A DNA stretch of 64,000 nucleotides from Treponema sp. (GTDB taxonomy: Bacteria > Spirochaetota > Spirochaetia > Treponematales > Breznakiellaceae), in contig WQWU01000001.1 of assembly GCA_009785215.1 (NCBI GenBank), positions 26,046-90,045 on the forward strand, in the 5' to 3' direction. Within the stretch, counting starts at the first letter, position 1. The number at the start of each line of letters is the position of its first letter. Below, one piece after another: positions 6,911 to 63,743 of the stretch. The position numbers and the translations under genes are program-made. The notes beneath the pieces were generated by a model. The model saw only the letters and a list, made by a program, of their open reading frames with translations. It was not told where the DNA came from and searched no databases.

Positions 6911-7954
6911 TTATTTATTCATAACAAACATTTGGTATATACCTCTGTAAGTTCTGTCATCAAAGCGGAACTGCAGATTGGAAAAATTAAACAGACGCAC
7001 TGCCATCCATGCCTGATTCCCAAACTGAAACTGCACAAGACCTGAATCTGTAATAGTATAACCTGAGTACGAAGCGCTGTTCATTATTCTGCGCGGTTGT
7101 TCTCCAAGTTTGAATTCAAAAATATCAAAATTATTAAAATCTATAAAGCGAACACCCATTAATGCATCGTTATGATCAAAAAAATAGCGCGTATACCTGT
7201 CTTCTCCGTAATGAATGACACCGCCGCTTGGATATATTTCCTGCTGTTGGTTTGTTACAAGGTCGTAGATAATATAAGTCTTCGTAAAATCGATAAAACG
7301 TTCTATAATTAAATATCTATTATCTATAATTAACCTGGGAGAACAAAAATCCGTATTATAAGTGTCTGCGTTCGGATCACCCGGGGTGAAAAATCTAATA
7401 CTTGTCAGTGTCAGAAACTGCCTGGTTGTTGTATTGTATAACGGACTTCTTGTTCCATCGGGAGAACCGCCAAAAAAAATAAAATTGCCGATGTATCTTA
7501 TAAAATTATTCGGCGGTCGGTTTACCTGGTGATTCGTTTTTTCGCCTGTTATTAAATTAACTTCTATTCCAGTTCCGTTTTTTTCATAGTATAATCTGGA
7601 AAAATCATAAACAAAAAAGCGCCTAACTCCTGTTAAAGTACCTTCGCGGCTGTCACGTCTGATTGTTGAAGTATCGAGCCAGTTAAAAACAAGAACTCTG
7701 CCGTTTTCTGACATTTTAACATTATCAAAAATTTCTATGGTTTTATTTTCCCAGTGCAGAACAAGTTTTTCCCACAAGCCAAGATAACCCAGAACATTTG
7801 CAGAGGTAAACGGATTATCCCTTAACCTTAATCCCGTTGTATAGGGAACTGCAGTACTGTTTACAGATAACGCGGATATATTGATGCCTAAAAAAATAAA
7901 TAAACAGCAGAACAGAAACAGAACTTTTTTTATAAACCTGGCTTTAATAAGCAT
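6911..7954 (-). CDS. Secreted protein of unknown function (SH3-like N-terminus, beta-rich)
   Basis: Signal peptide, TGLRLRDNPFTSANVLGYL SH3-like stretch; start codon lies in the TTAGC array. Confidence 0.6.
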   Translation of the reverse strand: MLIKARFIKKVLFLFCCLFIFLGINISALSVNSTAVPYTTGLRLRDNPFTSANVLGYLGLWEKLVLHWENKTIEIFDNVKMSENGRVLVFNWLDTSTIRRDSREGTLTGVRRFFVYDFSRLYYEKNGTGIEVNLITGEKTNHQVNRPPNNFIRYIGNFIFFGGSPDGTRSPLYNTTTRQFLTLTSIRFFTPGDPNADTYNTDFCSPRLIIDNRYLIIERFIDFTKTYIIYDLVTNQQQEIYPSGGVIHYGEDRYTRYFFDHNDALMGVRFIDFNNFDIFEFKLGEQPRRIMNSASYSGYTITDSGLVQFQFGNQAWMAVRLFNFSNLQFRFDDRTYRGIYQMFVMNK

Positions 7955-7992
7955 AGCTTAGTTTAGCTTAGCTTAGCTTAGCTTAGCTTAGC
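7951..7992. repeat. Pentanucleotide tandem repeat (GCTTA)n, about 8 units
   Basis: gcata gctta gttta gctta gctta gctta gctta gctta gc read directly. Confidence 0.97.
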
Positions 7993-38700: not shown

Positions 38701-38759
38701 ATCGGCTTTTCTCCAAAATTGATTTATTTGTTAATTAAATCACTGCTCATTAATTTTTC

Positions 38760-38845
38760 GGAGAGAGAGGGATTCGAACCCTCGGAGCCCGTGAGGGCTC
38801 AACGGTTTTCGAGACCGCCCGATTCAACCACTCTCGCATCTCTCC
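38760..38845 (-). tRNA. tRNA-Ser(CGA)
   Basis: Reverse complement anticodon loop CTCGAAA, long variable arm, GGTTCGAATCC T-arm. Confidence 0.92.
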
Positions 38846-38907
38846 AAGAGTTATCGTTATTAATACAGTAGCTTTTTAAGGGGTCTGTGTCAATGATTGC
38901 AAAACCG

Positions 38908-39039
38908 TTGTTTTTTACCCTTATATTTTGATTAAATCAACGTATTATTACCCTTATATATTTACCATAATTGCCTATTATTACCCTTATAAATAGTTGA
39001 CATTTGCCTATTATTACCCTTATAATATTGTATCTGACA
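38908..39039 (+). promoter_or_regulatory. Four iterons with exact 33-bp period; promoter TTGACA (38997) - N18 - TATAAT (39021)
   Basis: ACCCTTAT at 38917, 38950, 38983, 39016; units 2-4 share TATTATTACCCTTATA; last iteron lies in the spacer/-10. Confidence 0.88.
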
Positions 39040-39154
39040 TTATAACGTCAGATACAATCACGATAGCCGACATTAAAACGTCGTCTATCGTAGCGGTTTA
39101 CGGAGCGGGTTTCCCGCTCTTACATTCCGCTTTTAGCGTAACTTCGTAAACCGC
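39028..39154 (+). promoter_or_regulatory. Structured 5' leader of the ATPase gene: two sister hairpins plus a branched stem
   Basis: TTGTATCTGAC-ATTATAAC-GTCAGATACAA; CGATAGcCGAC-ATTAAAAC-GTCGtCTATCG; GCGGTTTACG ... CGTAAACCGC enclosing GAGCGGG-TTT-CCCGCTC. Confidence 0.8.
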
Positions 39155-39168
39155 CATAGGGAGTGCTA

Positions 39169-40488
39169 ATGAATCGCTATTTTAACAGGAATATTGACTC
39201 GATACTTTTGGCTTGGTCTAAAGAAAAAGGGAGAAAGCCGCTTTTACTTAGGGGAGCAAGGCAGATTGGCAAGACATCAGCTGTACGTGAATTAGGTAAG
39301 CATTTTCAGCATTATGTAGAAATTAACTTTGATGATGACGATGAAGTAGGTAATCTATTTTCCCAGAATATCGATCCTGCAGAATTGTGCAGTCGTCTTT
39401 CTTTATATTATAAAACCCCGATTGAAGCAGGAAAAACACTTCTTTTTTTTGACGAGATCCAAAGCTGTACAATGGCAATGAAAACCCTGCGGTATTTTTA
39501 TGAAAGACACCCAGAGCAGCACCTTATCGCCGCAGGATCATTACTGGAGTTTGCTTTGGAAGAGATGCCTTCTTTTGGAGTTGGGAGAATCCATTCAGTA
39601 TTTATGTATCCGTTTTCATTCTACGAATTTCTAAATGCAATGGATGAAGAAGTGCTGGCAGAAGCCTGTCGTAATGCAAGTCCAAAAAAACCATTATTGG
39701 AACCAATTCATAATCAATTAATTAATAGGTTAAAAATATTTATGCTGATTGGCGGTATGCCCGAAGCTGTCGTTCGTTATGTGAAAACAAAAGATTTATT
39801 GCATAGTCATGAAGTTTTGGAAGATCTTCTTGTTACATTCAGAGATGATTTTTCTAAATACCGCACAAAAATGCCTTCTCTTATTTTAAACGAAGTGTTT
39901 GAATCTGTAATGCATCAGGTAGAAGGAAAATTTATTTACGAGCGGGCGGCAGTGGAAACTGGAAATGCAAGAGTAAAGCAAGCATTGGACTTACTTTTAA
40001 AAGCAGGGTTAGTTCATACTGTTACACACACTGCTGCAAATGGAATTCCTTTAGGTGCAGAAATTAATCCTAAAAACAGGCGTATTATTCCCTGTGATAT
40101 AGGTATTTTTCTTCATGTTCTTGGTATTGAAAGATCAGAAATTCTTTTTGCAGATAATTTTAATGCAATCAATAAAGGAGCGTTAGCTGAAATATTTGTC
40201 GGTCTTGAATTATTAAAAAATGCCGCTTCTCACGCTCAGAGGCAATTGTATTCTTGGCACAGAGAGAAAGCTCAAAGCAGCGCTCAAATTGATTATTTGA
40301 TACAAAAAGGCTCATCGATTATTCCTATCGAGGTAAAATCTGGAACACAAGGCGGCATGAAAAGCCTGCAAATTTTTATGAAAGAAAAAGATATAAAACG
40401 GGGAGTGCGGACATCGCTGGAAAACTTTGCTGTAAGGGAAAGTTTTGATATTTATCCATTGTATGCTATTTCTAATTTATATAGATAA
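39169..40488 (+). CDS. AAA ATPase with DUF4143-type C-terminus
   Basis: LLLRGARQIGKTSAVREL Walker A, LLFFDEIQ Walker B, C-terminal AQIDYLIQKGSSIIPIEVKSG; ATG at 39169 or GTG at 39163. Confidence 0.88.
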   Translation: MNRYFNRNIDSILLAWSKEKGRKPLLLRGARQIGKTSAVRELGKHFQHYVEINFDDDDEVGNLFSQNIDPAELCSRLSLYYKTPIEAGKTLLFFDEIQSCTMAMKTLRYFYERHPEQHLIAAGSLLEFALEEMPSFGVGRIHSVFMYPFSFYEFLNAMDEEVLAEACRNASPKKPLLEPIHNQLINRLKIFMLIGGMPEAVVRYVKTKDLLHSHEVLEDLLVTFRDDFSKYRTKMPSLILNEVFESVMHQVEGKFIYERAAVETGNARVKQALDLLLKAGLVHTVTHTAANGIPLGAEINPKNRRIIPCDIGIFLHVLGIERSEILFADNFNAINKGALAEIFVGLELLKNAASHAQRQLYSWHREKAQSSAQIDYLIQKGSSIIPIEVKSGTQGGMKSLQIFMKEKDIKRGVRTSLENFAVRESFDIYPLYAISNLYR

Positions 40489-59592: not shown

Positions 59593-60585
59593 ATGAAGAG
59601 TTCGATTCTTTTTTTCTTGTTTATCATTGGCGGAATATTATTTGCAGATGATTACAGATGGGATTTGGTTAATGCATTGGCCAGGAATGATTTCCAGGCT
59701 GCCGAAAGATTAATAAATCAAAATATCGGTTCTGCTTCCCCGCAGGAAAAAAGCCTTATGATGAATCTGGCTCTGCTATATTCACAGGGAGAAACCGCCT
59801 TAAGAGTTTTAGCATTATTGCAGAGTTTTAATGTCCGCCCTACAGCGTTTGATTTGTTCACGGCAATTAACAGGAATCAGCCGAATTCTGTTGTGTATTC
59901 CATTATGAATAACGGAGTACGCGCCAATGGAGAAATACTTCTTGTTGCAATGGAAAAGCAAAGATATGATCTTGCATCGCAGTTTATTCAGGCGGGAACA
60001 GATGTAAATTATTCTTATCCTTCTTCCAGCAGGCATGCCGACGGTATGACAGCGCTTTTACATGCTGCAAACAATAATAATTTTGATATGGTGCAAATGC
60101 TTGTTGAGCACGGAGCAAATGTTAATGTCAGAAATAGAGATGGTAATACTGCTTTATCCATGGCGCAGGCAAAAGGAAATAATCAAATGGCCGATTATCT
60201 TTTGGGGCGCGGAGCGGTTCAGGGAAACTTTAACGGCGCTCAGCAGTCTCAGCAGGCTACGCAAAGCGGTGCGCAAAGCGGTGCGCAAAGCGGTGCGCAA
60301 AGCGGTGCGCAAAGCGGCGGAATTGCAAATTTTTTAGAAACTCAAATTGTTGAGTTTACTCCCGGGAACTACCGTCTTTCCGGAGGAAACAGAGACCTAA
60401 GATTTACCGGCACTGAAAGTTTCGGCAATATCGGTTTTATCAGAAATGACAGAACATACAGCGGTTCGTATCAGGCATCCAACGGAAATTTAATATTGAT
60501 AATGGAAGGCCGCACATTTGTATATAAAATTGATTCTAACATGTCTTTTTCCGGGAACGGAGAAGTATGGGTTAGAACAAATTAA
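59593..60585 (+). CDS. Ankyrin-repeat secreted protein with GAQS tandem repeats
   Basis: Signal peptide; GMTALLHAANNNNFDMVQMLVEHGANVNVRNRDGNTALSMAQAKGN. Confidence 0.8.
   Translation: MKSSILFFLFIIGGILFADDYRWDLVNALARNDFQAAERLINQNIGSASPQEKSLMMNLALLYSQGETALRVLALLQSFNVRPTAFDLFTAINRNQPNSVVYSIMNNGVRANGEILLVAMEKQRYDLASQFIQAGTDVNYSYPSSSRHADGMTALLHAANNNNFDMVQMLVEHGANVNVRNRDGNTALSMAQAKGNNQMADYLLGRGAVQGNFNGAQQSQQATQSGAQSGAQSGAQSGAQSGGIANFLETQIVEFTPGNYRLSGGNRDLRFTGTESFGNIGFIRNDRTYSGSYQASNGNLILIMEGRTFVYKIDSNMSFSGNGEVWVRTN
60261..60320. repeat. 12-bp coding tandem repeat (GCAAAGCGGTGC)4 plus one degenerate unit
   Basis: Read directly; encodes AQSG repeats in frame. Confidence 0.97.

Positions 60586-63681: not shown

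Positions 63682-63743
<62 letters not shown>

Follow-up and report, generated by a model that had tools for sequence, protein, structure and literature searches.

What is the role of a short repeat that occurs four times, at exact 33 bp intervals, across the promoter of an ATPase gene, and which protein would read it? This question is raised by positions 38910–39041 of the window, the whole 64,000-nucleotide stretch of Treponema sp. DNA analysed here. The repeat ACCCTTAT was found at 38917, 38950, 38983 and 39016, with spacing of exactly 33 bp, just where an earlier sequence-only reading had placed it, and the spacers between these cores differ in sequence. The 16-mer TATTATTACCCTTATA is common to units 2–4 (38943, 38976 and 39009), and unit 1 carries the version GTTTTTTACCCTTATA, which differs from it at three positions. 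The elements of the locus are listed below.

38758–38846, minus strand: tRNA-Ser (CGA), a divergent neighbour outside the system
38910–38942, plus strand: iteron unit 1, the divergent unit, GTTTTTTACCCTTATATTTTGATTAAATCAACG
38943–38975, plus strand: iteron unit 2, with its core TATTATTACCCTTATA at 38943–38958
38976–39008, plus strand: iteron unit 3, with its core at 38976–38991, containing TTGACA
38997–39002, plus strand: TTGACA, −35-like; five close relatives show none at the corresponding position
39009–39041, plus strand: iteron unit 4, with its core at 39009–39024 and the −10 box supplied by its end; in five relatives, the last unit lies just upstream of the ATG
39021–39026, plus strand: TATAAT, −10-like; five close relatives keep it, in the form TATAAT or TATAAA
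39158–39163, plus strand: AGGGAG, Shine–Dalgarno-like by sequence, right after the end of a hairpin element described below
39169–40488, plus strand: AAA_14-DUF4143 ATPase (COG1373; PADLOC PDC-S01) of 439 aa, starting at ATG 39169, with an in-frame GTG also present at 39163

With up to three mismatches allowed, the 16-mer had seven matches in the window against 1.36 expected, a number reached in none of 100 shuffles, and the self-match at a lag of 33 in the 200 bp upstream of the ATG was 22.0 (z about 14; 0/100 dinucleotide shuffles). In the uniform upstream test described below, the four-unit array gave p = 0/200 shuffles, and the ATPase gene was the only one of 58 window genes with a 31–34 bp array at p ≤ 5/500. 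Elsewhere in the genome, no copy of the iteron with fewer than two mismatches was found, and two-mismatch matches were not above a reversed-pattern control. Since the nearest other genomic copies thus have at least two mismatches and remain at control level, the window repeat appears to serve the ATPase promoter alone. Perfect or near-perfect short tandem repeats of other kinds are also present in the window, namely TC ×27.5 (63685–63739), CGCAAAGCGGTG ×4.8 (60260–60317) and AGCTT ×8.6 (7950–7992).

The promoter had been described as a consensus one, and its TTGACA and TATAAT elements, separated by 18 bp, indeed form the sole 12/12 match within 5 kb. The last unit of the array overlaps the −10 region, with TATAAT lying inside unit 4 as had been proposed. 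To compare the locus with its relatives, a 266-bp region was searched against 61 genomes, and it proved to consist of two unrelated repeats: iterons in the left half, and a dispersed hairpin element in the right half (39027–39158). In every case that was opened, matches to the left half were arrays upstream of close homologues of the same ATPase. Five close homologues (70–76% identity) have arrays of three to eight units with a −10 element at the end, followed by an ATG about 8–20 bases on. By inspection, TTGACA is absent from the matching place in all five, so that only the −10 element in the last unit is a shared promoter feature. The array accompanies the gene in five of five homologues with at least 70% identity and its 33-bp spacing is conserved among homologous loci, in support of the earlier proposal of a control region dedicated to the downstream ATPase.

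We then compared the upstream regions of ATPase homologues from 40 genomes of the genus, and tandem arrays were present in nearly all of them. A uniform test looked for a tandem array at a lag of 31–34 bp within 200 bp upstream of the start codon (p ≤ 0.01). The sample covers bacteria, with MAG data, mechanically chosen start codons and homologues that are not phylogenetically independent. Among homologues of at least 415 aa, 73 of 85 had such an array at this threshold. When lags of 12–80 bp were allowed, 72 of the 85 were significant: 19 at 32 bp, 39 at 33 bp, 1 at 34 bp, 11 at 65–66 bp and 2 elsewhere. Some of the 12 long-class genes that failed the 31–34 bp test show single palindromes, or copies located 66 bp apart or further upstream. 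In the short class of DUF4143 proteins (<415 aa), arrays were detected in only 8 of 32 genes, several of which are fragments. Four array-less short-class loci (L128, L130, L136 and L139) seem to carry a single promoter palindrome of the TTGTAC...GTACAA type, perhaps a one-site form of the same control. At three other loci (L151, L074 and L077), tandem arrays with a 23-bp period, distinct from the 33-bp class, lie upstream of other ORFs.

Array copy number across the family ranges from two to nine units, and some arrays reach far upstream of the −10 element (L055, L071 and L125). Many iterons are near-palindromic, and the array sequences are unrelated across the genus, as exemplified by GCCTTGTATTTTTGACAAA (L093), CATTTATTGGTTCCAAAAAGTGT (L113), ATATTCGCCGTAAAAATATGCA (L125) and CACCTTTTTCCCTGTAAAAAGGTG (L079). 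In addition, TANNNT ends 6–7 nt upstream of the ATG in 21 of 73 genes (these two distances being the ones counted), which suggests leaderless transcripts that would be directly blocked. The window array is therefore one case of a rule that holds for a large protein family and is not unique to this locus.

The controls bear on whether such arrays might be functionless products of chance or slippage. Arrays were detected for 1 of 58 window genes, which is the ATPase gene itself, and for 3 of 143 flanking genes, including one case that is an ATPase array read in antisense; these flanking genes superseded an earlier control set with 26/168 matches, in which many control ORFs lay antisense over the same arrays. 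Among homologues on IMG/VR viral contigs, collected after the test had been fixed, 19 of 21 were significant at p ≤ 5/500. Slippage can yield tandem repeats, and the spacers differ, but 58 of 72 significant loci share this spacing despite unrelated sequences, and with controls near zero this explanation is barely credible for the locus. For the family, chance or general tandem repeats are refuted by the near-zero controls.

The spacing rule spans eight phyla, including Spirochaetota. Plasmid carriers with an array belong to Bacteroidota, Fusobacteriota, Pseudomonadota, Bacillota, Actinomycetota and Chlamydiota, with arrays on plasmids of Segatella copri, Parabacteroides, Prevotella, Fusobacterium animalis, Glaesserella parasuis, Vibrio coralliilyticus, Acinetobacter, Agathobacter rectalis, Vescimonas, Collinsella and Criblamydia. 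Arrays were also detected on gut phage contigs and in one Neomarinimicrobiota MAG. Carriers that did not pass the 31–34 bp test are Fusobacterium vincentii and copy a of Segatella copri; Bacteroides fragilis did not pass at this lag either, its plasmid carrying two copies 66 bp apart. In the titles, abstracts and selected passages of the open-access literature, no title or passage on iterons of the AAA_14-DUF4143 family was found, and the passages on PDC-S01 mention no promoter array; an earlier report outside this material is possible. As far as these sources go, the PDC-S01 protein family is already known and the 32–33 bp operator arrays are the new part.

Which protein binds the arrays is suggested by the repeat sequence, which goes with the protein and not with the genome. 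For relatives with at least 60% identity in different genomes, the median motif similarity was 0.41, compared with 0.177 for same-genome paralogues with less than 40% identity and 0.175 for unrelated pairs (Mann–Whitney p = 2.8e-12; Mantel test, 0/2000). The window's own genome carries five full-length ATPase copies with arrays of differing sequence (L053, L093, L111, L113 and L118). Shared repeats in relatives are alone no proof of recognition by the ATPase, because the upstream DNA of close relatives is itself inherited in common; a spacing that stays constant while the sequence turns over, on the other hand, is not readily explained by descent. The encoded ATPase would be the simplest candidate binder of its array. 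Two or more copies of the half-site AAAAGTGT are present in 6 of 19 arrays from beyond the genus (0.0 expected) and in 3 of 57 within it. A scan by partial correlation for protein segments that predict motif similarity gave weak peaks at residues 211–235 and 96–115, and the predicted recognition helix was not among the peaks of this weak scan.

Binding by a host regulator or nucleoid protein that silences these genes, instead of by the ATPase, would fit arrays that are AT-rich and overlap the promoter, and the ATPase as binder is itself only a candidate. However, same-genome paralogues have unrelated repeats, no more similar than background (0.18), in contrast to the shared repeats of relatives in different genomes (0.41). 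The same spacing is found across eight phyla, and no factor other than the ATPase is known to occur at all of these loci. On this evidence, a host protein is distinctly unlikely as the binder. A host global regulator was rejected, since the motif does not track the genome.

The encoded protein offers the parts for such a role. It matches the PADLOC PDC-S01 model PDLC04786 over its full length (E = 5.7e-133, residues 5–437), and Pfam detected AAA_14 (6e-26) and DUF4143 (1e-23) and no other domain. Residues G29, R31, G34 and K35, D95 and E96 (Walker A/B), and E341, E388 and K390 are invariant in the family, and D375 of the PD-(D/E)XK motif is present in at least 90% of homologues. The AlphaFold model (pLDDT 90.8, pTM 0.90) confidently predicts an AAA+ core followed by a C-terminal nuclease-like domain with E341, D375, E388 and K390. 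Residues ~237–308 are predicted to form a winged helix, based on the helix–helix–strand–strand order of secondary-structure elements in the model. The best Foldseek matches in the PDB were a Pyrococcus Walker ATPase (2qen), Orc1/Cdc6 on origin DNA (2qby), ORC, NLR-type proteins and Avs3, and MuB was also among the fold matches. Because the TM-scores of the PDB matches are low (0.21–0.45 by query length), they support the AAA+ fold more than a function. According to PMC12988326, PDC-S01 is an ATPase fused to a PD-(D/E)XK member and ranks fourth in frequency among defences across prokaryotes, most candidates of this kind still awaiting validation; we regard PDC-S01 as an anti-phage candidate. 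About 39,000 PDC-S01 genes are reported from bacteria and archaea. The closest homologue in the genome-contig scan (L031, 59% identity) comes from a MAG contig bearing the title Tannerella sp., which reflects either horizontal transfer or misbinning.

The iteron-like geometry and the fold matches to Orc1/Cdc6 and MuB, as well as the presence of the gene on plasmids and viral contigs, might indicate a site of replication or transposition of the plasmid iteron type, with the ATPase as initiator or transposition helper. Against this, Pfam detected no Rep or transposase domain, the window gene is single, with a tRNA gene on one side and unrelated genes on the other in a 90-kb contig, and the arrays stand at the 5′ end of the gene with the last copy adjoining the start codon; we therefore consider such a site very improbable. 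A plasmid-type replicon was ruled out by the lack of a Rep domain (AAA_14 and DUF4143 being the only Pfam domains).

The reading that we favour, with a probability of about two in three, is that the array is a cognate operator to which the ATPase binds cooperatively, repressing its own gene. We infer binding by the ATPase, cooperativity and repression as follows. The ATPase, with its AAA+ core, predicted winged helix and nuclease-like PD-(D/E)XK C-terminus, would bind its own iterons cooperatively, and successive protomers would lie on nearly the same face of the DNA, since the sites are 32–33 bp, or about three helical turns, apart. Once occupied, the last unit would cover the −10 region and transcription of the gene would be repressed; it is this cover of the −10 element that points to autorepression. 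A private repeat for each paralogue would allow many such genes to coexist in one genome without cross-talk.

The same contacts could serve another end, with the ATPase bound as an activator or on a sensing platform, where cooperative occupancy would keep the ATPase-nuclease at rest until a phage factor or invading DNA sets it free. The two to nine copies, some of them far upstream of the −10 element (L055, L071 and L125), exceed the needs of simple repression, and PDC-S01 is a phage-defence candidate (PADLOC; PMC12988326). Nevertheless, in many genes the last unit covers or adjoins the −10 element and the start codon, an arrangement that agrees best with repression, and the activator or platform role appears unlikely. 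A further, tentative extension, also improbable though a little less so, takes the array as a ruler for an inactive, self-repressing PDC-S01 that infection would disassemble, so that the array would act as both promoter switch and sensor. Infection might do so by using up the protein, through a phage factor or by bringing in DNA with extra iteron copies, and the private repeat would mark self, distinguishing it from related, competing ATPase copies.

The window copy has one further feature, a predicted structured mRNA leader formed by the dispersed hairpin element between the −10 element and the ATG. This 132-bp triple-hairpin repeat is absent from the sequence-only reading. RNA folding of 39027–39154 gave three strong hairpins (z = −7.1), as follows.

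39027–39058, plus strand: hairpin 1 of the dispersed element (RNA fold)
39060–39091, plus strand: hairpin 2, with the GACATTAAAACGTC loop region (RNA fold)
39093–39154, plus strand: hairpin 3, branched, GCGGTTTACG...CGTAAACCGC with two inner hairpins (RNA fold)

The element is not related to ATPases: up to 17 matches, sometimes in tandem, were found in one genome, and among the genomes searched it is confined to this genus. It contains a GACATT...AACGTC motif with an A·C mismatch, and compensatory change was detected in 15 of 32 predicted pairs. At the gathering score, Rfam gave no match for 39027–39158 and only tRNA across the window, by which a known structured RNA family was ruled out for the hairpins; the 3′ end of the element had no exact match in IMG/VR. 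Because the element separates the −10 box from the ATG and displaces the start codon, the leader of the window gene is atypical, with a predicted structured mRNA leader of about 136 nt. In 9 of 30 copies of the element (L014, L036, L033, L015, L019, L022, L026, L030 and L028), the upstream ORF ends within hairpin 1, its stop codon lying in the 5′ arm and the 3′ arm being the reverse complement of that arm. At L014, where the upstream gene is dnaK-like, the twelve coding bases just before the stop codon are mirrored in hairpin 1. Such mirroring could mean that the flank was copied in inverted orientation when the element inserted, or that a hairpin at the end of a gene is selected for.

Taken as an operator, a near-universal element that is diverse in sequence and invariant in spacing would provide a direct handle on PDC-S01, which the consulted passages of PMC12988326 place among the most abundant candidate anti-phage genes. 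It predicts a DNA-binding specificity for each paralogue, a means of inducing the gene experimentally, an oligomer that repeats about every three helical turns and an easy test for annotation. Should the ATPase prove to bind its own array, the decoding of DNA recognition by AAA+ winged-helix proteins could draw on hundreds of protein–operator pairs. The arrays suggest that the ATPase reads its own address to control itself.

Among known systems, the window protein matches the models of PDC-S01 (PADLOC) and COG1373 over its full length, as well as both Pfam domains. Iterons at plasmid origins (RepA/RepE/pi) are tandem repeats bound by the protein of an adjacent gene, often with autoregulation, at a spacing of ~19–22 bp. 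The ATPase arrays resemble them as tandem repeats beside the gene of a candidate binder, but differ in the 32–33 bp spacing, the lack of a Rep and the location at the promoter of a chromosomal ATPase gene. Toxin–antitoxin and restriction–modification controller proteins belong to mobile defence-type genes with a private, autoregulated promoter operator. The ATPase loci are alike in having a private promoter operator for a mobile defence-type gene; in contrast, they encode no small antitoxin or controller as a protein of its own, the AAA+ ATPase would itself be the binder, and the arrays comprise 2–9 units at about three helical turns. Finally, Orc1/Cdc6 at origin recognition boxes, the second-best PDB match (2qby), is likewise an AAA+ protein with a winged helix on repeated DNA. 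With a TM-score of 0.30 by query length, the fold match is a partial one, and the setting differs, an origin in the one case and a promoter in the other, with a nuclease-like domain added in the ATPase.
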